Assembly: GCA_903847945.1 (NCBI GenBank)
Contig: CAINEY010000011.1
Location: 124,001-188,000 of the forward strand
Direction: 5' to 3'
Source of the DNA: an uncultured bacterium
Lineage (GTDB): Bacteria > Bacillota_I > Bacilli_A > Erysipelotrichales > Erysipelotrichaceae
Length of the DNA stretch: 64,000 bases
Under the pieces are notes generated by a model. That model saw only the letters and a list, made by a program, of their open reading frames with translations, was not told the DNA's origin and ran no database searches. This document shows, piece after piece, positions 52,241 through 64,000 of the stretch (the stretch's first letter is position 1; the number at the start of each line of letters is the position of its first letter). Made by a program: the position numbers and the translations under genes.

Positions 52241-54646
52241 ATGCGTAAAATCATTACAAGTCTTTTGGCAGTCGTCTTAAGTCTGGCTTTGTGGCCGAGT
52301 TTGAACGTCAGCGCAGCCACGGAAGATTATCCGGCCAAGTTTTTACCTATCGTTGAAGTGAAAGTCAATGTGGGAAATTCCGAGTTCGAGGATGATGCCT
52401 TCTTGCAATCGCTGATTGATGCGTTGGAAGCCCGTGGAGTGTTGGTTTCCAAGATCGATGTCGGCTATGCCGGAACGATCGACACCGACTTCTCAGTGAC
52501 CGATCCGACCAACTGGAATCTCTATGATCACTTTGGTTGGTGGGAAGAAGTGGGTGGCTTGACGAATATCTGGGGCATTTTCGAGGCCTATGTGGAGTCA
52601 CACGTGACCGGTTATGATTCGTCGACGATGTATTTGAATGACAGTTTTCTCGATGAAGCAACCTCGATGCTGCAACTGGAATACTACGATGGAACCGATT
52701 ACGCTGTCATCGATTTTAAGGATCTTTCGGGTTTGGTGACACGTATTGAAACCAACCCGCTTGATTTTGAAATCGACGGATGGGTCAATAACCTGCTCGA
52801 TGAAGCGGAAGCTGTGATCGTGGCCACACCGGAAGGTACTGCCTTAGGCATCGATGTCATCGAGGATATGTGGTATGATCCGACGGATTCGACAGCCTAT
52901 GTCGGATGGTATGATGCCACGAATTATGATTGGTATGAAACCCCGTTCCAAGCGTACGAAGATTACTTGACGCAAACGGGTTTCATGGCGAGTCTACAGA
53001 TGTCCGATGCTAGCTTTTACGATGATTACGGCTGCTTTGAATTGTACGATGCGGCCAATTATGATTATTTTTATGTTTATTTCTCACCGGTTGAATACGG
53101 TGGTCAAGAGCCGTCGCATTACCCCAGTCCCGATGAAAATCCGGATGGGGATAATCCAGTCGACTGGACCAACGATCCTCACATTGTCATTCATGATGAC
53201 GGTCAGGTCGTATTTTATGGCTATGGTTCCCCAGCGTTTAAGGATTTCATGTTGTCGGTGAACGATGCTGTTTCCGACAAGCACTTTAGTTTTGATCTGG
53301 ATGAATCGAAAGTGGATTATCACTCGATGGAAGGCGGAGGATTCCTCTTCAGCATTGCTCTCAATGATCAAGATACCGTATCCGAAGACGATGACACGAT
53401 GAGCGGTTACAGTGTGCTCTTTACTGAATCAGGTACAAATCTGTATCGCTTAACCGAGGTGAATGTCAAAGCCTTCCATGATACGGAAGGCGATGAAATG
53501 GAATATGTTTCCGGTGTTGAGCTGATTCAATCCGGTGACAAAGACACCTCCAGCGACCAACACGCCATCAAGATCGATGTCGTAAATAACGTGTTGACTG
53601 TTATGGATAATGATGTCTTGGCGTTTGACGGGATAACACTGGATGTGGTTGGGAATCGGTTTGGACCGCTGGTGTCGTATGGTTCACACGGTTGTTCACA
53701 GTTGTCATGGTTCGTTTACGACAACTTGAAGATGGGAACGTCAGTCAAAGTCGTCTCCAAGGCTCAAGACAATGTCGGAACGATTCAATGGGCAGATGGC
53801 GCTTTCCACGTGTACATCAACCTGGAAGATACGAATGATGCGACATTGATCGTCGACGACTTCGCCGAAGCCCTCAAAGCGGATGAAGCGACGTACATCG
53901 GAATCGGATTAAGTGCCTCGCAAGTGATGCATGAAGCAATCATCACGGCCAATAATGATTTAGGAGCGTACTTCGGGTATGCAAGTTACCCGCAAAACAT
54001 GAGCGAAATCGTTGCGGCGATTGCCGACTACCTGTGGCCGCTCTTGGAAGAACCGACGATTGAAAACATTCACAATGCCGTTTTGGATGCGACTGTTGTG
54101 AGTGATCTGCCGACCAAGCCGACGGTGACGATTCCAGGCGGTGTTCTGGATGTCTTTGATGAACTGGTAGCCGATCACTCGGTTGAGCTGTTGATCACGA
54201 TCAATCTGCTCGATTCGGCGAATGTCCCTACGGATGATAAAGCTTTATTGGATGCGTATTACCAAGGCTTAGCGGATAAGAACGCGATTGGATTCACTTA
54301 CCTGTCGATTTCGGGTGAGAAATGGTTGGATGATGCTTTTGATTCTGCGGTGACGTCGACACTGAAACCGATCACCTTTGTGATTACGATCCCGGTATCC
54401 TTGCGCTCAATGACTTCATTTAAAATCGTTCGGGTGCACAACGGAGTCGTCAGTGTGATTGAACCGACCTACGACGCGCAGAAGTTTACTTTGACGTTTA
54501 CAGCTGACAAGTTCTCCACGTATGCGATCCAATACTCGGATCCCGATGCCTTACCGAATACGGGGGATGCCGGGAATCTGGGCTGGTTGTTTGTCATCAG
54601 TGGGTTGATCCTGCTGGGGCTGACGAAACGTCCTCAGGCTGAATAA
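52241..54646 (+). CDS. Large acidic secreted protein with LPNTG cell-wall sorting signal
   Basis: Signal peptide MRKIITSLLAVVLSLALWPSLNVSAA; C-terminal LPNTGDAGNLGWLFVISGLILLGLTKRPQAE; SD aggagga. Confidence 0.9.
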   Translation: MRKIITSLLAVVLSLALWPSLNVSAATEDYPAKFLPIVEVKVNVGNSEFEDDAFLQSLIDALEARGVLVSKIDVGYAGTIDTDFSVTDPTNWNLYDHFGWWEEVGGLTNIWGIFEAYVESHVTGYDSSTMYLNDSFLDEATSMLQLEYYDGTDYAVIDFKDLSGLVTRIETNPLDFEIDGWVNNLLDEAEAVIVATPEGTALGIDVIEDMWYDPTDSTAYVGWYDATNYDWYETPFQAYEDYLTQTGFMASLQMSDASFYDDYGCFELYDAANYDYFYVYFSPVEYGGQEPSHYPSPDENPDGDNPVDWTNDPHIVIHDDGQVVFYGYGSPAFKDFMLSVNDAVSDKHFSFDLDESKVDYHSMEGGGFLFSIALNDQDTVSEDDDTMSGYSVLFTESGTNLYRLTEVNVKAFHDTEGDEMEYVSGVELIQSGDKDTSSDQHAIKIDVVNNVLTVMDNDVLAFDGITLDVVGNRFGPLVSYGSHGCSQLSWFVYDNLKMGTSVKVVSKAQDNVGTIQWADGAFHVYINLEDTNDATLIVDDFAEALKADEATYIGIGLSASQVMHEAIITANNDLGAYFGYASYPQNMSEIVAAIADYLWPLLEEPTIENIHNAVLDATVVSDLPTKPTVTIPGGVLDVFDELVADHSVELLITINLLDSANVPTDDKALLDAYYQGLADKNAIGFTYLSISGEKWLDDAFDSAVTSTLKPITFVITIPVSLRSMTSFKIVRVHNGVVSVIEPTYDAQKFTLTFTADKFSTYAIQYSDPDALPNTGDAGNLGWLFVISGLILLGLTKRPQAE

Positions 54647-57338: not shown

Positions 57339-57373
57339 AAAAACGATTCCGATGATCTCGGAATCGTTTTTTT
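57339..57373. terminator. Bidirectional terminator
   Basis: AAAAACGATTCCGA-tgatc-TCGGAATCGTTTTTTT. Confidence 0.9.
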
Positions 57374-57758
57374 AGGCTTTGGGTTTGATTAACAGGAGTC
57401 CTAGACTGAGCACGCTCAAGCCATAGAACAATAAAGCAACGATAGAGTAGAACGACAAGTACGGGGAAGAGCTTCCAGCGATAGCGATGACGGCGCTAAG
57501 AATCATCCCTAGAGTCTGCCAAGCCGTGGCTGTATTGAGCAGGTTGACCGTTAAGCGATACATCGGACGTTTGGAGAGTCCCGGAATCAGTAGCCACACC
57601 ACTGTGTAACCCAGTGCTGCACCGGCAACAGGAACCCAAGCAAAGCTCATCAAGGCAGAGGTCACGCCGTGGGAGAACAAGTGATACACCACCCCGAACA
57701 CAAGGGTGAAAAGGCTGAGTCCGATGAAAATCAGGGCGCGTTTGGCGTTGGGTTTCAT
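57372..57758 (-). CDS. Uncharacterised ~4-TM membrane protein
   Basis: Hydrophobic ORF; ATGA overlap with the upstream glycosidase gene. Confidence 0.75.
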   Translation of the reverse strand: MKPNAKRALIFIGLSLFTLVFGVVYHLFSHGVTSALMSFAWVPVAGAALGYTVVWLLIPGLSKRPMYRLTVNLLNTATAWQTLGMILSAVIAIAGSSSPYLSFYSIVALLFYGLSVLSLGLLLIKPKA

Positions 57759-58690
57759 TCGGTATCTCCCGTGATGTAGAGGATGTCGCTGGTTCCGCGC
57801 TGATAAACACCGGTTCCGTCATAAGTGGGCTTGTTGGTGAGGCTGCCGTTGAACCACATCGTGGCGGTTCCGCCACCATCCAAGTTATAGGCGATCTGAG
57901 CACCGTGATCCAAGAAGATCTGGGTCAGTTCGGTCAAATTGACCCCGCGAGAGGTCGAGGAGCGTCCGTCCACGACCACAAAGAGGTAATGCAGAGGTCC
58001 GATCTGACCAATAGCCGTGCGCGGGTTGTCGCTGGGGGAAACCCATTTCTGATTGGTGGTATCGACGACTACGCCATTGTTGACCAAAACCGGTCCAAAG
58101 CTCCAGCCTTGGGTGACGCCTTGTTCCACCAAGGATTCCCCATCGACACTGCCTTCAGTGTGTAAGCGCAGATTGCCGTCTTTGTCCATGATCAGAGCGA
58201 TGTTATCGGGGGCATTGCGGGGAACATCCCGAAAGAAGGTCCCGTTACGAATGACCAGTCCCACATCCCGATACCCATAGAAATCCCCGTTGATGGCCAA
58301 GATGGCTTTTTTATTCGTGGCCATGGTGGAGGGGTATTGTTTCACATTGCGCCCATAGGTATCAAAGGCCAGCGCGGTTCGAAAGAAGAGCGGGGAACTG
58401 AGCTGGATGTCGGCCACATAAATGGTCGCATCGTACTTTTCGTAGATTTCGATGTTGATCGATTTGTAGACCGTGGTCTGTGTACCGATCGAGGAATAGG
58501 TCGTATCGGACACCTCGATGGATTTGATGATTTCGGTGTCGGTTTCACACTCGCAGGGAATCGGTTCATTGTCGATGATCTTGGTCCCGCGGGCAATGAC
58601 AAAGGCATCCAACATGACAAAGGCGGATACGGTGGTGATGAGGACGGCCATGACGAGGCCGTAGACGAAGGGTACTTTAAGTGTTTTCAT
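57755..58690 (-). CDS. Phosphodiester glycosidase (NAGPA-domain) family exported protein
   Basis: N-terminal TM; AINGDFYGYRDVGLVIRNG, GWSFGPVLVNNG, NPRTAIGQIGPLHYLFVVVDGRS, AYNLDGGGTATMWFNG. Confidence 0.9.
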   Translation of the reverse strand: MKTLKVPFVYGLVMAVLITTVSAFVMLDAFVIARGTKIIDNEPIPCECETDTEIIKSIEVSDTTYSSIGTQTTVYKSINIEIYEKYDATIYVADIQLSSPLFFRTALAFDTYGRNVKQYPSTMATNKKAILAINGDFYGYRDVGLVIRNGTFFRDVPRNAPDNIALIMDKDGNLRLHTEGSVDGESLVEQGVTQGWSFGPVLVNNGVVVDTTNQKWVSPSDNPRTAIGQIGPLHYLFVVVDGRSSTSRGVNLTELTQIFLDHGAQIAYNLDGGGTATMWFNGSLTNKPTYDGTGVYQRGTSDILYITGDTE

Positions 58691-59726
58691 GGGGATGAGC
58701 GAAGACGTAACGCTTCTGGATTTGGTAGGAAATCACAAAGAGGAAGAGATCGACAAGGATCTTGAGGAGAACCACTTTCTGATTGAAGAGGGTATAGACG
58801 CCCTTGAGTAAGAAATAGGAAGCCATCATCTGAATAGCGGCCAAGCTGTAGTATTTGATGAGGGCACTCATCCAGGCCGCCTGACTCTTGAACACTAAGG
58901 TTTTATTGAGGGTAAAGTTGAGGTTGACGCTGACCAGACGGGCCAAGACGGTGGCCCACAAGATCGGATCCTGGACCTTCAGGGTATAGACCAGGAACGA
59001 GAAGAGACCCAAGTCAGCGGCCGTGGAGATCAATGAACTGGCGGAGAAACGCAAGATGCGCTTATAGATGCGGATGGAATCCAAGACCGGATTGAAGTGC
59101 GATGCCGCGTTATTGTCCAAATAGACCGTTTCGATGGGCACTTCGATGATGGGAATCCCAAGCTTTCCGCAGGCCAACAGGACATTCATCTCATACTCGT
59201 AGCGATCACCTTCGATCTTCGCCAATGCATCGAGGTGTTGGTAGTGGAAGGCTCTTAGTCCCGTTTGGGTGTCGGTGATGCGCTGACCGATGAGGTAACT
59301 GGTGATGGCCCGGGTGATGGTGTTGCCGAGACGGCTTTTGAGCGGAACATTGCTGAGATCGAAACGCCGGGCCCCCAGGATCAAGGCTTCAGGGCGTTTC
59401 TGCAAAGCTTCCAGCAGCGCAAACATGTCTTCCGGGCGATGTTGACCATCCGCATCGATGGTCACGGCGATCGAATTGTCTGGAGCATTCTTGGCTTCCT
59501 GAAGGGCAGTCTTGAGGGCTGCTCCTTTTCCGCGGTTGACCGGATGGACCAGTAAGGTGGTCTTAGGAAACAGTGAGACGGTCTTAAAAACCGAGTCACA
59601 GGCGGATGAACTCCCATCATTAACAACAATGATGCGGTTCACGCGCACATCCGCAGCCAAGGTTTGTACGAGATCGATGAGCCGTTGGTTGGGCTCGTAA
59701 GCAGGAATTAAGACCAGTGTCGTCAT
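58677..59726 (-). CDS. GT2 glycosyltransferase fused to GtrA-like membrane domain
   Basis: VLIPAYEPNQRL, VVNDGSSS, TIDADGQHRPEDM; C-terminal RFSASSLISTAADLGLFSFLVYTL...NFTLNKTLVFKS. Confidence 0.93.
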   Translation of the reverse strand: MTTLVLIPAYEPNQRLIDLVQTLAADVRVNRIIVVNDGSSSACDSVFKTVSLFPKTTLLVHPVNRGKGAALKTALQEAKNAPDNSIAVTIDADGQHRPEDMFALLEALQKRPEALILGARRFDLSNVPLKSRLGNTITRAITSYLIGQRITDTQTGLRAFHYQHLDALAKIEGDRYEYEMNVLLACGKLGIPIIEVPIETVYLDNNAASHFNPVLDSIRIYKRILRFSASSLISTAADLGLFSFLVYTLKVQDPILWATVLARLVSVNLNFTLNKTLVFKSQAAWMSALIKYYSLAAIQMMASYFLLKGVYTLFNQKVVLLKILVDLFLFVISYQIQKRYVFAHPHENT

Positions 59727-59808
59727 ATCACAGACCATTATAAAGGTTCAAGGGGTTTCTGTCATGAAAAGACGAGCACTTTATGCGGTCCGTGGTAGAA
59801 TAGTATCG

Positions 59809-62697
59809 ATGTCTACTCACCAAAAGAAACGCCATGTGCTTAAGAATGGCCCCCTGTATCTGATTGTGATTGCCTTGGTTTTCGGAACCCTGATTTTAAG
59901 TGAAGGGATTGAACGCTCCGTCGTGCCCTCGGATGAACCGGTTCCGTTAGAACCGGAAGGGCAGGCCCGAATCAACGCCCTAATCATCAACGAGATCATG
60001 AGCGCCAACGATGGGATCTATATGGATCCCAACGGTAAGACGTCCGATTGGATCGAACTCTATAACGGAACCGATCGGGCCATCAACCTCACCAACTTTG
60101 GGCTCAGTGATACGCTGGATGTGACCAAGTGGCTCTTTCCGGCGATCACGATCGAAGCCAAATCGTACTTAGTCGTTCCGCTGGATCCCGGACAGCTGGG
60201 CTTGTTTGCGGATTTCAGTTTAAGCCGGGACGGGGATGAAACGGTCGTATTAAGGGATGCGGGAGGGATAGTCATCGACTCGGTAACGACCCAACCTTTG
60301 GCTTCCGACACCGTTATGGGACGCAACCTGAGCGGACAGTGGGTCGTCATCGAGCAAGGCACCCCGGGTTATCCCAACACGACGGCGGGCTATGACGCCT
60401 ATCTGGCTTCGCTGGTCAGCGAACCGGGAGTTTTACGCATCAGTGAAGTGCTGCCGCGCAACCGAGGCAACTTCATCAGCGAGGGTGACTTGCCCGGATT
60501 CATCGAAATCACCAACACCGGATCGCAACCCATCGCCCTCAAGCGCTATGCGCTAAGCGATGATGCGCAGATTCCGTACAAATGGCAGTTTCCCGATGTG
60601 ATGCTGGATGGTGGAGAACAGATCGTCATTCTGACCGGATCCCGTTCCCGCTTCGACATTCCTTACAACACCGGTTTTTCACTCGATTCAGAGAACGGCA
60701 GTGTCGTACTCACCAACGCGCTCGGTAAAATCATCGATCGGATCGATTATGATGCCCTCAGTGATGGGATGGGACTTCAAGTCGTCAACGGAGTGATCGA
60801 ACGCTCGGTCAATCTCTCCCCGGGATATCCTAACACCGCAGCCGGAATCCAAGCGTTCAGGGAATCCACTGCCTTATCCGGAACGCTGATCCTGAGTGAA
60901 GTCATGGCCAATAACGTGTCCTTCGGATTACACAACGGCGCGTCGGCTTACCCTTGGGTCGAACTGAAGAACGATTCTGCACAGCCCATCACCTTGAGTG
61001 ACTATGCGCTCAATGACAGTGCCCGATTCTCGGATGCGGTCAGCTTGCCGAATGTGACACTTCAACCCGGGGAATACATCGTGTTCTTTTTGTCCGGAGA
61101 GGCCAACCTGTCGGTCCCCGGATATACGCATCTGGCAGTCAGCTTAGCCCAGGATGAAGGGCTTTATCTGATGCGTCAGGAGACTTTGGTGGATGCGGTC
61201 TATCCAGGAATACTGGAAATGGATCAAAGTTATGGCCGTAATGCCAATGGAGCCTGGCTGTATTTAACGGAACCCAGTCTGGGGACCCCCAACGGTTCTG
61301 GACGATTCGCGATCAGTGCCGCTCCGGTGTCCCTTCAAAGTGAAGGACGCTACCGGAGTCAGCAACTGACCGTGACCCTTCAAAGCGGTTCCACCATCTA
61401 TTATACCACCGACGGGACCACCCCGTCGACCTCCAGTCCACGCTACACCGGACCCATTACGTTAAATCAAACCGCCGTGGTTAAGGCGGTTTCTGTGCGC
61501 GAAGGGCAGTGGGATTCGCCCGTCGCCCAATACACGTATCTGCTTAATGATCTGCACGACATCAACGTCGTTTCCCTGACCGTGGATCCTCAACGTTTGG
61601 CTTACCTCAACGCCAATCCCAACAGTGCCACTCTGGAGATTCCGGCTCACATCACTTACTTTGATTCGGACGGTCCCGGGTTCTCGTTGGATGCCGGATT
61701 ACAGCTCTTTGGAGGCGTGACTCGATACATCCCCAAACGCAGTTACGTGGTGAAGTTTAAAGGGAAGTACGGCACCTCAAAACTGGCCTATCCGATGTTT
61801 GAGAACCGGGACTATGCTGTGTTTGATTCCTTGATCCTGCGTTCCGGTTCACAAGACTACAACACCACCATCATTCGTGACATCCTGGGGCTGGACATGA
61901 TGGAGTCCTCGGAGACGGTGTTGGTTCAGGCGTATGAGTCGATCGTTCTTTACATCAACGGGAAATACTGGGGTCTCTACGACATCCGCGAGCAAATCGA
62001 TGAAGACATGGTGGGGGGACAACTCAACATCCCGCGTGAGAACATCAACATTGTTCGGATCGATAACGTGGTGACTTCAGGCAGCATCGACAAGTACCGG
62101 CATATCTTAACGATGGCCAAAACCTTGGACTTCAGCGTGGAAGCCAACTACCGGGCGATGGAAGCCGAACTCAACATCGACTCCTACATCGATTACTGGT
62201 TGGCCGAGATGATGTGCGCCAACTACGATACCCTCAATACCCGCTATTTCTGGTCGCCGGATTACGACAACGGCAGAATCAACCTCTTCTTTTATGACTT
62301 GGATTACGCGTGGTATTGGCCCGATCTCAACTACTACAGCCACATGACCAATCCGGAAGGCATGGCCGTCCGTAAAGTCACTACAGCCTTGGGCATTGCG
62401 ATGGTGCAAAGCCCGATCTTCCGTGAACGGTTCCTGGAACGTTTGAGTGATTTCTTAACGAACCAGTGGACTGAGGACCTGGTGATGGATCGCCTGGATG
62501 CCCATTTGAGCCTTCTGTTGCCGGAAGTCCAGCGGGACTGGGCACGGTGGGGATTCGACTTCTCGACGTATGACAATAACGTGGACTACTTAAAAGATTT
62601 CATTCAACGTAGGACTGCTTCAGTCCTCAAAGATACCAAAGCCTATTTCGGTCTCTCGGATAGCGAATACGATGACCTCTTTGGAGATCTCCCATGA
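59809..62697 (+). CDS. Secreted multidomain protein: three lamin-tail-like domains, chitobiase/HEX C-terminal-like segment, CotH kinase domain
   Basis: INEIMSANDG..SDWIELYN; ISEVLPRNRG..GFIEITN; LSEVMANNVS..PWVELKN; YYTTDGTTPSTSSPRYTGPI; GLQLFGGVTRYIPKRSYVVKFKGKYG..LILRSGSQDYNTTIIRD..GLYDIREQIDED..INLFFYDLDYAW. Confidence 0.9.
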   Translation: MSTHQKKRHVLKNGPLYLIVIALVFGTLILSEGIERSVVPSDEPVPLEPEGQARINALIINEIMSANDGIYMDPNGKTSDWIELYNGTDRAINLTNFGLSDTLDVTKWLFPAITIEAKSYLVVPLDPGQLGLFADFSLSRDGDETVVLRDAGGIVIDSVTTQPLASDTVMGRNLSGQWVVIEQGTPGYPNTTAGYDAYLASLVSEPGVLRISEVLPRNRGNFISEGDLPGFIEITNTGSQPIALKRYALSDDAQIPYKWQFPDVMLDGGEQIVILTGSRSRFDIPYNTGFSLDSENGSVVLTNALGKIIDRIDYDALSDGMGLQVVNGVIERSVNLSPGYPNTAAGIQAFRESTALSGTLILSEVMANNVSFGLHNGASAYPWVELKNDSAQPITLSDYALNDSARFSDAVSLPNVTLQPGEYIVFFLSGEANLSVPGYTHLAVSLAQDEGLYLMRQETLVDAVYPGILEMDQSYGRNANGAWLYLTEPSLGTPNGSGRFAISAAPVSLQSEGRYRSQQLTVTLQSGSTIYYTTDGTTPSTSSPRYTGPITLNQTAVVKAVSVREGQWDSPVAQYTYLLNDLHDINVVSLTVDPQRLAYLNANPNSATLEIPAHITYFDSDGPGFSLDAGLQLFGGVTRYIPKRSYVVKFKGKYGTSKLAYPMFENRDYAVFDSLILRSGSQDYNTTIIRDILGLDMMESSETVLVQAYESIVLYINGKYWGLYDIREQIDEDMVGGQLNIPRENINIVRIDNVVTSGSIDKYRHILTMAKTLDFSVEANYRAMEAELNIDSYIDYWLAEMMCANYDTLNTRYFWSPDYDNGRINLFFYDLDYAWYWPDLNYYSHMTNPEGMAVRKVTTALGIAMVQSPIFRERFLERLSDFLTNQWTEDLVMDRLDAHLSLLLPEVQRDWARWGFDFSTYDNNVDYLKDFIQRRTASVLKDTKAYFGLSDSEYDDLFGDLP

Positions 62698-63374
62698 ACC
62701 TTCGCCATGAACTCAAATACGTAACGACACCGGGAAGGGCTCAGGCCTTGCGTTCGTCGCTCAGTGCCTTGATGGATAAGGATCCCAATGGAAATGCCGA
62801 GGGAGCCTATCAAATCATCAGCCTCTATTACGATACGATCGATGGGGCTGCCTTCTTCGATAAACTCGATGGGATCGAGTACCGACGAAAGTACCGCATC
62901 CGAGCCTACAACGCCAATCGTTCCTTCTTCAAACTGGAATGCAAATACAAGCTCCAGGATTGGACGGCCAAGGAATCCGAGACGATCGATCCTGAGCTGG
63001 TTCGAGCACTCATGAATGGATCGGAGGTGCGACCTGTTGAATTAACAGCAGGTCCTCTGACGAAACGGTTCCTGCGTGAAATCACGATGATGAATTTGAA
63101 ACCTTCAGTCATCATCCAGTATCAACGGACGGCCTTGGTCAGTGAGGATCTGGATGTGCGGGTTACCTTTGATGAACAGATCAGCATGGGTAGTTACACC
63201 ACGGATGTGTTCTCACCGGATCTGCCCCTGATTCCGGTGGTTGACGAGGAATCCGTCGTCGTGGAAGTGAAGTACAACGAAGTCTTACCGATGGTCATCG
63301 CGCTTCTCTTGCGTCCGATGACGATGCAACGCCTGGCCGTCAGTAAATACGCCTTAGGGTACAACAAAAAATAG
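62694..63374 (+). CDS. Polyphosphate polymerase (VTC)-domain protein
   Basis: RHELKYVT, ISLYYDTID, YRRKYRIRAYNANRSFFKLECKYK, VVEVKYNEVLP, SKYALGY tunnel-metalloenzyme motifs. Confidence 0.9.
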   Translation: MNLRHELKYVTTPGRAQALRSSLSALMDKDPNGNAEGAYQIISLYYDTIDGAAFFDKLDGIEYRRKYRIRAYNANRSFFKLECKYKLQDWTAKESETIDPELVRALMNGSEVRPVELTAGPLTKRFLREITMMNLKPSVIIQYQRTALVSEDLDVRVTFDEQISMGSYTTDVFSPDLPLIPVVDEESVVVEVKYNEVLPMVIALLLRPMTMQRLAVSKYALGYNKK

Positions 63375-63383
63375 GAGGTCTTT

Positions 63384-64000
63384 ATGGACATCATTCAACA
63401 GATTCAGCAGTTGCTGGTGCAGCAGTTTACCGGAACCATCACGTTAACGAGCATGCTGCTCTCGTTAGTCAGTGCCTTTGTCATTGCGCTGTACATTGTG
63501 CTGGTGTATCGCCGTACGTACAACGGTGTCGTCATGTCGAAATCGTTCGCACTGCTTCTGGTGCTGTTGGCGATGGTCACCTCGCTGGCCGTGAGGACCA
63601 TCAGTTCAAACCTGGCCTTGTCCCTGGGCATGGTCGGGGCCTTGTCGATCGTCCGTTACCGGACAGCCGTCAAAGATCCGCTGGATACCGGCTTTATCTT
63701 CTGGGCGATCATGGCGGGGATCATGGCGGGGATCGGGCTTTATCTCATTGCCATCATCAGTTCCTTGTTGTTGGGGGTGCTCTTCATGGTCATCTTCGGC
63801 GTCGAGATCAAACGTTCGGTGCAGTACCTCTTGATCGTCCGTTATGAAGCCTCAGCCCATGACTTGGTTATTGCGGCACTGAAGAAGTTACCTAAGCAAT
63901 CGCTGCGCAACAAACACCTGGTGGGTAACACCGTGGAGTTGACGTTGGATGTGCAATTGGCAGTAGGTCAGGATCATCTGATTGATCCGATCAAAGCGGT
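63384..64000 (+). CDS. DUF4956 domain membrane protein (3' truncated by window)
   Basis: Open frame from ATG 63384 (SD aggagg) to window end; LALSLGMVGALSIVRYRTAVKDPLDTGFIFWAIMAGI. Not in the ORF track because there is no in-window stop. Confidence 0.9.
   Translation, partial: MDIIQQIQQLLVQQFTGTITLTSMLLSLVSAFVIALYIVLVYRRTYNGVVMSKSFALLLVLLAMVTSLAVRTISSNLALSLGMVGALSIVRYRTAVKDPLDTGFIFWAIMAGIMAGIGLYLIAIISSLLLGVLFMVIFGVEIKRSVQYLLIVRYEASAHDLVIAALKKLPKQSLRNKHLVGNTVELTLDVQLAVGQDHLIDPIKA

Follow-up and report, generated by a model that had tools for sequence, protein, structure and literature searches.

Six genes at the end of the window, that is, the whole 64,000-nucleotide stretch of DNA analysed here, may belong together as a single divergent cassette of the cell envelope; this would be a VTC-DUF4956-CotH module of a Pel-independent subtype, with a putative polymer pathway. 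We hold this reading tentatively, at a probability of about 45%. What is new here is the occurrence of the CotH, VTC and DUF4956 genes (the trio) without Pel and with a recurrent enzyme partner, NAGPA, while the trio itself is already known. The features are as follows.

57372..57758, minus strand: small membrane protein, 128 aa, 3-4 TM segments (hydropathy)
57755..58690, minus strand: NAGPA phosphodiester glycosidase, 311 aa, with an N-terminal membrane anchor (TM at about residues 9-27; Pfam)
58677..59726, minus strand: GT2-GtrA fusion, 349 aa, DPMS/PpgS-like polyprenyl-phosphate sugar synthase (Pfam, PDB)
59727..59808, no strand: shared divergent promoter region, 82 bp (consensus and conservation only)
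59809..62697, plus strand: membrane-anchored kinase, three LTD domains, CHB_HEX_C and CotH, 962 aa (Pfam)
62694..63374, plus strand: VTC polyphosphate-polymerase-type tunnel domain, 226 aa (Pfam, 1.3e-34)
63384..64055 (L002:9385-10056), plus strand: DUF4956, 223 aa, four TM helices and a C-terminal ACT-like cytosolic domain (Pfam, 2e-10)

The cassette (57372-64055) consists of two tight divergent operons. On the minus strand the order is the DPMS-like GT2-GtrA, the membrane-anchored NAGPA and the small membrane protein, with overlaps of 14 bp between the first two ORFs and 4 bp between the last two. On the plus strand the anchored LTD3-CotH kinase is followed by VTC and DUF4956; the CotH stop (62697) and the VTC start (62694) overlap by 4 bp, and VTC ends at 63374 shortly before DUF4956 starts at 63384. 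The preliminary description had proposed these six ORFs in two divergent operons, with an ATGA coupling and a tight junction, and both the ORF check and Pfam agree with it; the domain assignments have Pfam matches for five of the six ORFs. The window ends before the DUF4956 stop, and the last 55 bp of this gene lie beyond it. Past position 64000, the plus operon ends with DUF4956 at 64055 (L002:10056), and is followed by a DUF3196-like gene and then by trigger factor, lon and engB, which were named by sequence and gene order. With DUF3196, tig and lon downstream, a Pel locus beyond the window end is ruled out.

The 82 bp between the two arms were correctly delimited before, since the genus alignment backs the starts on either side. 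Longer ORFs open at 59738 (GT2-GtrA, the longest ORF) and at 59764, while the alignment with three other genomes of the genus favours starts at 59726 (GT2) and near 59809 (CotH), and rules out the one at 59764. The region contains minus-strand promoter-like boxes (ATGACA-17-TATAAT, 59765-59737) and a plus-strand promoter-like box (TGg-TAGAAT, 59793-59801). Both -10-like boxes are conserved in the genus. As they lie only ~10 nt upstream of the two ATGs, they suggest that the transcripts of both arms may be near-leaderless.

In the minus-strand arm, the GT2-GtrA fusion matches both Pfam families (GT2 8e-16, GtrA 1.5e-11) and aligns over residues 3-336 with dolichol-phosphate mannose synthase (PDB 5mlz, E 0.0011); its match to the NCBIfam PpgS model (4e-22) falls under the PpgS cut-off. 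The NAGPA domain (PF09992, Pfam E 9e-34) has as PDB relatives the mammalian uncovering enzyme 6pki (2.5e-7) and the bacterial DUF2233 protein 3ohg. That is, it is related to the characterised uncovering enzyme, and is predicted to cleave sugar-1-phosphodiesters. The 128-aa protein, for which no Pfam family was matched, accompanies NAGPA in other genomes too (L079, L081, L082). It is a membrane protein as described before, with a small correction: hydropathy gives three to four TM segments where four had been counted.

In the plus-strand arm, the CotH ORF carries three LTD domains, CHB_HEX_C and CotH (PF08757, 8e-32), and its PDB match is CotH 5jd9. The Asp pair D807/D830 (codons 62227-62229 and 62296-62298) is intact, and is kept in 91 of 94 aligned sequences. 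Its spacing of 23 residues is that of D228/D251 in Bacillus subtilis CotH, where we take D251 to be the second catalytic Asp. The D228Q variant of the B. subtilis protein is inactive (PMC7821199).

For VTC, a single-sequence search of PDB gave chance matches only, so a profile was needed for the comparison. All Vtc4 tunnel residues checked are intact: K200, R264, R266, K281 and K294 correspond to K8, R68, R70, K84 and K93 of the window VTC, and Y359, R361, R373 and E426 to Y143, R145, R156 and E191; the Lys, Arg and Glu residues among these are invariant. The AlphaFold2 model (pLDDT 93.7) folds like Vtc4, which is the best match in Foldseek (top matches 3g3r, 3g3q and 8i6v, TM up to 0.73). Thus, neither CotH nor VTC lacks its catalytic residues, an outcome that would have spoken against the proposed pathway. 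It is highly improbable that the VTC domain is a tripolyphosphatase or another triphosphate-tunnel enzyme rather than a polymerase: the tunnel superfamily does include triphosphatases and adenylate cyclases, and where Vtc4 has T198 its bacterial counterparts share an invariant E6, but those other enzymes appear only at lower ranks of the fold search, VTC proteins fill the first 13 places among the structural matches, and each Vtc4 catalytic residue checked is conserved.

The DUF4956 model (pLDDT 85.9) has given only ACT-like matches in the fold search of PDB, the MgtC tail among them, and no membrane fold matching its TM part. R91, R93 and K97 are invariant basic residues.

Under the cassette reading, VTC would polymerise phosphate from ATP in the cytosol, and DUF4956, as its membrane partner, would pass the chain out, much as the basic TM channel does in yeast VTC. 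Carrying lamin-tail and sugar-binding-type domains, the anchored CotH kinase would phosphorylate a surface protein or glycan. The GT2-GtrA would load a sugar onto polyprenyl phosphate and present it outside, and the anchored NAGPA would strip sugar-1-phosphodiester groups from the polymer. We infer a polyP or phosphoglycan product with the glycosidase as its editor. The ATP source for CotH kinases is an unanswered question in PMC7821199. It is a long shot that the extracytoplasmic CotH takes its phosphoryl groups from polyP exported by VTC-DUF4956, and that its surface target bears the NAGPA-edited sugar-phosphates; if true, this would explain how the kinase works outside the cell, where ATP is scarce. 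Two questions become testable in tractable strains, namely the product of bacterial VTC and the phosphate source of extracytoplasmic CotH kinases.

The preliminary description held that the trio recurs and has no established function. The recurrence stands, but the functional blank does not, as CotH, VTC and DUF4956 are an accessory set of Gram-positive Pel loci (PMC7112168, PMC12345266) and trio knockouts exist in Streptococcus intermedius (PMC12345266). There, deletions of CotH and DUF4956 (SIR_1594, SIR_1592) altered the Pel amount and aggregation, while VTC deletion had no reported phenotype (PMC12345266); therefore VTC polymerase activity may be dispensable in this species. Accordingly, the trio could regulate an exopolysaccharide synthase encoded elsewhere, a role already proposed at Pel, with CotH and the ACT-like domain of DUF4956 tuning secretion and the VTC product being minor or signalling. 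In line with this, each of G001-G003 has a further trio located at a Pel locus, and PelF/PelG lie within the fetched stretch of 13 of 75 contiguous trios. We nevertheless consider this regulatory role rather unlikely for the window, considering that Pel genes occur at none of the 32 LTD-CotH loci, that PelG has no match in the window's assembly (79% complete), and that 45 VTC-DUF4956 loci have a Cthe_2159 protein instead of a kinase.

Of the 152 pairs in our sample in which the two genes are adjacent on the same strand, 142 have DUF4956 directly after VTC. The secreted-type partner near VTC-DUF4956 is CotH at 62 loci, LTD-CotH at 32 and Cthe_2159 at 45, with none or a contig cut at 38. These frequencies are not population estimates, since both the gene caller (longest ORF) and the profiles, which were home-made, are crude, and since the named sample consists of the 80 matches nearest to the window-type DUF4956; an initial alignment of DUF4956 proved too diverse to scan the collection with. 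A 2025 study did not find the trio outside Pel loci (PMC12345266), whereas for 41 contiguous trios here the fetched stretch contains no Pel gene. The trio is thus widespread as a module; in this sample most of its loci are Pel-free, and it occurs with alternative partners at the surface. In the window it is contiguous, yet not contiguous with pelDEADAFG: pel genes were not found in its flanks, and DUF4832, the partner in the streptococcal and clostridial form, is not among the scanned neighbours. The window trio is a Pel-free subtype of the module, marked by LTD-CotH.

As to the linkage of the two arms, NAGPA lies beside 10 of 32 LTD-CotH loci and 0 of 107 other trio-type loci (Fisher 1e-7); after a lineage collapse, made by eye after the data were seen, it is 5 of 27 LTD-CotH loci (Fisher ~2e-4). 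The NAGPAs next to LTD-CotH belong to at least two distinct subfamilies, in divergent and co-directional layouts. The subfamily different from that of the window adjoins LTD-CotH/VTC/DUF4956 in other lineages, divergently in L096, L100 and L232 and downstream in L086-L088 and L092. This recurrence of NAGPA as a partner suggests a phosphodiester-bearing surface product for the LTD-CotH subtype. In the window's genus, both arms occur together in four genomes at one conserved site, and are jointly present or absent. In G004-G006 the flanks (mutS2-uvrC-racemase-metallophosphatase and DUF3196-tig-lon) are intact, with two other genes at the cassette site. The proposed co-conservation of the arms is borne out by this genus pattern together with the recurrence of NAGPA in other lineages.

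The genus pattern could also reflect a single insertion or loss event. The arms would then be independent operons placed in one block by chance, with GT2-GtrA-NAGPA serving another glycan, e.g., a teichoic-acid-like polymer. GT2-GtrA-NAGPA-small membrane protein and NAGPA-small membrane protein cassettes do exist without the trio (L082, L079, L081), and the majority of LTD-CotH loci (22/32) have no NAGPA. We regard such a chance arrangement as unlikely, given that the second NAGPA subfamily adjoins the LTD-CotH trio elsewhere and that none of the 107 loci of other trio types has NAGPA beside it.

The neighbourhood survey bears out the linked cassette in part: NAGPA recurs as a partner, while the GT2-GtrA and small-TM arm at LTD-CotH loci is confined to the window's genus. 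GT2-GtrA also occurs at three Cthe_2159 loci and, with NAGPA, in other genera; most NAGPA loci are without it. Judged from coordinates alone, only 4 of ~115 VTC loci in the class sample (in G000, G001, G003 and G405) have a NAGPA gene within a few kb, so the link is subtype-specific rather than general, and a class-wide conserved pair of arms is ruled out. The preliminary description is supported on domains, catalytic residues and arm linkage, and its chemical pathway is a putative one; NAGPA is not next to VTC at the majority of VTC loci in the class sample. In the divergent arms that we call 'RF39-like', a lineage label that is our impression, the recurring second gene (cluster 19) was considered as a glycosyltransferase; it encodes an anchored repeat protein with no Pfam family.

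The Pel accessory set (PMC7112168; S. intermedius SIR_1594-1592, PMC12345266) has the same three families, contiguous and co-directional, and by locus numbers in the same order, CotH, VTC, DUF4956. The window locus differs in having no pel genes and no DUF4832, in the three lamin-tail domains and CHB_HEX_C of its CotH, and in the extra divergent arm. With the eukaryotic VTC complex (Vtc4/Vtc3/Vtc1) it shares the tunnel polymerase domain with its catalytic residues and fold; in the window, however, polymerase and membrane part are on separate genes, the putative membrane partner DUF4956 has an ACT-like domain and no SPX domain, and the operon includes an extracytoplasmic kinase. In Clostridium perfringens NELoc-2, as far as the table of PMC2879425 goes, the VTC genes lie next to CotH and a glycosyltransferase annotated as chitin-synthase-like, each with a gene directly downstream for a small protein that is membrane-located and annotated as tubulin-like, and the table describes no NAGPA. 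DPMS-type GT2-GtrA synthases (PDB 5mlz) combine GT2 with a GtrA-type TM domain over the full length, as in the window, where the enzyme differs in sitting in an operon with NAGPA.

The two divergent operons that the preliminary description placed in the last 6.6 kb of the window are borne out by the open reading frames and their Pfam domains, and their genes are as follows.

57372-57758, minus strand: 128-aa membrane protein
57755-58690, minus strand: NAGPA
58677-59726, minus strand: GT2-GtrA
59809-62697, plus strand: LTD3-CHB_HEX_C-CotH
62694-63374, plus strand: VTC
63384-64055, plus strand: DUF4956, with its last 55 bp past the window end (L002:9385-10056 in the extended stretch)
Downstream of the plus operon: DUF3196-like gene, then trigger factor, lon and engB (these three named from sequence)

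Neighbouring genes of the minus-strand operon overlap one another, and the genes downstream of the plus operon are housekeeping genes. Comparing the region with three further genomes from the genus backs the start codons of both arms. Since -10-like boxes, conserved in the genus on both strands, lie only ~10 nt from each ATG, the transcripts of both arms may be nearly leaderless.

Within the genus, both arms are present in genomes G000-G003 (on separate contigs in G002), and neither was found in G004-G007; G004 and G007 are incomplete genomes, the latter with two other VTC genes. G004-G006 have intact flanks (mutS2, uvrC, racemase and metallophosphatase on one side, DUF3196, tig, lon and engB on the other), and two small genes occupy the site of window 52241-64055, a block comprising an LPXTG-type protein, an ABC transporter and both arms. 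This joint presence and absence fits one cassette, but the pattern could be a single event. The LPXTG-type protein of the block (52241-54646) is an exported 801-aa protein with an LPNTG-type C-terminal anchor, which matches no known family, is 56% identical to its G001 counterpart (L072) and is a possible CotH substrate. In addition, the genus shows a near-complementary distribution of PPK1 and VTC: PPK1 was not found in G000, G001 and G002, which have VTC, and is present in G003-G006, of which G004-G006 lack VTC. The exceptions are G003, with both, and G007, with VTC and without PPK1.

The module itself is already known; what is new is its Pel-independent, NAGPA-linked form. In Gram-positive pel loci the accessory set consists of CotH, a polyP polymerase, DUF4956 and DUF4832 (PMC7112168). 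In S. intermedius, deletions of SIR_1592 (DUF4956-type, described as MgtC plus ACT) and SIR_1594 (CotH) altered the Pel amount and lowered aggregation, and the authors report that no CotH/VTC/DUF4956 arrangement was found outside Pel loci (PMC12345266). We have counted neighbourhoods in 186 gathered stretches. Of the 152 VTC and DUF4956 pairs that are adjacent and share a strand, 142 have DUF4956 directly after VTC. PelF or PelG lies within the fetched stretch for 13 of 75 contiguous co-directional CotH/VTC/DUF4956 trios, whereas 41 have neither although at least four genes are visible on either side, and 21 are interrupted by contig ends. Therefore, most of the sampled trios are Pel-free. G001-G003 hold both a Pel-linked set, whose DUF4832 was identified in G002, and an LTD-CotH locus; PelG has no match in the window's assembly, a 1.53-Mb draft that is 79% complete.

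Sorted by third partner, 62 loci have CotH, 45 a Cthe_2159 carbohydrate-binding protein, 32 LTD-CotH (CotH with lamin-tail domains), and 38 none or a contig cut. Pel genes occur at 15/62 CotH loci versus 0/32 LTD-CotH loci, while NAGPA lies at most five genes from 10/32 LTD-CotH loci versus 0/107 CotH or Cthe_2159 loci (Fisher 1e-7; 2e-4 after grouping by eye, which leaves 5 of 27 lineages). Another locus, L092, also has NAGPA but breaks off before reaching the kinase. NAGPA is divergent in the window genus, L096, L100 and L232, downstream in L086, L087, L088 and L092, and upstream and co-directional in L135. In the tree, a fully supported split divides the window NAGPA clade from the clade of the other loci, and both have close relatives among trio-less NAGPAs; NAGPA has thus most probably been added to LTD-CotH loci two or more times. 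At RF39-like loci (so labelled by impression) the divergent arm carries an anchored repeat protein in place of GT2-GtrA. GT2-GtrA occurs at three Cthe_2159 loci (L053, L201, L218), and a GtrA-family gene lies, by coordinates, near trio-less NAGPA in G024, G171, G172, G110 and G371 (rough chance expectation <1). From this distribution, NAGPA and GT2-GtrA are recurrent but not obligatory partners.

At several LTD-CotH loci an anchored extracytoplasmic protein adjoins NAGPA (L087:9671-11056, L092:1201-2577, L096:4042-5346, L100:4348-5376, L232:4623-6026); L087's copy, the one scanned, has no Pfam family. The small membrane protein family (57372-57758; L079, L081, L082) has an FSHGV/FAHGV/FGHGV motif and is found alongside NAGPA whether the trio is there or not.

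At the residue level, a profile built from 20 bacterial VTC sequences, searched against the PDB, matched yeast Vtc4 at 7.7e-17. In the alignment, Vtc4 K200, R264, R266, K281, K294, Y359, R361 and R373 correspond to K8, R68, R70, K84, K93, Y143, R145 and R156, all invariant among 47 sequences, and a second profile's alignment places E426 at E191. R264, R266 and E426 are the residues changed to inactivate Vtc4 (PMC9911596). The 13 best structural matches of the window VTC model (pLDDT 93.7) are all yeast VTC proteins. The DUF4956 model (pLDDT 85.9) shows four TM helices and an ACT-like C-terminal domain; a structure search gave no match for its membrane part among solved structures. Three of its basic residues, R91, R93 and K97, never vary, and position 43 holds either K or R in every sequence.

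The window CotH aligns to spore coat protein H 5jd9, and its D807 and D830, spaced 23 residues, are kept in 91/94 CotH domains. The second Asp of B. subtilis CotH is D251. D228 of that protein is catalytic, D228Q being inactive (PMC7821199). Both the mammalian uncovering enzyme and DUF2233 3ohg are related to the NAGPA domain, whose protein carries a single predicted N-terminal TM anchor, and GT2-GtrA residues 3-336 align to dolichol-phosphate mannose synthase 5mlz (E 0.0011).

Overall, the cassette is a real, well-formed gene system, and we favour the reading that its six genes form a surface-phosphate cassette. The analysis shows the genes, residues, predicted folds and anchors, and linkage; substrates, products and transport direction are inferred. 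VTC-DUF4956 would act as the polymerase and the route through the membrane, analogous to yeast VTC with its basic TM channel (PMC9911596); the anchored CotH would be a kinase outside the cell acting on a putative substrate there; GT2-GtrA would supply sugar, and NAGPA would be the trimming enzyme. A bolder idea, of low probability, is that exported polyP would feed the CotH kinase. The chief fact against the surface-phosphate cassette is that knocking out VTC was silent in S. intermedius, where deletion of SIR_1593 left Pel amount and aggregation unchanged (PMC12345266).

The 45 Cthe_2159 loci, e.g., L053 and L202, where this carbohydrate-binding protein stands in place of CotH, show that VTC-DUF4956 does not need a kinase, and the polymerase/membrane pair therefore has interchangeable secreted partners. 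In G003 the LTD-CotH gene is broken by a frame change between its lamin-tail and kinase parts (L063:5985-6007), either an assembly error or real, and at L076:5783-8296 one VTC gene has two DUF4956 genes alongside.
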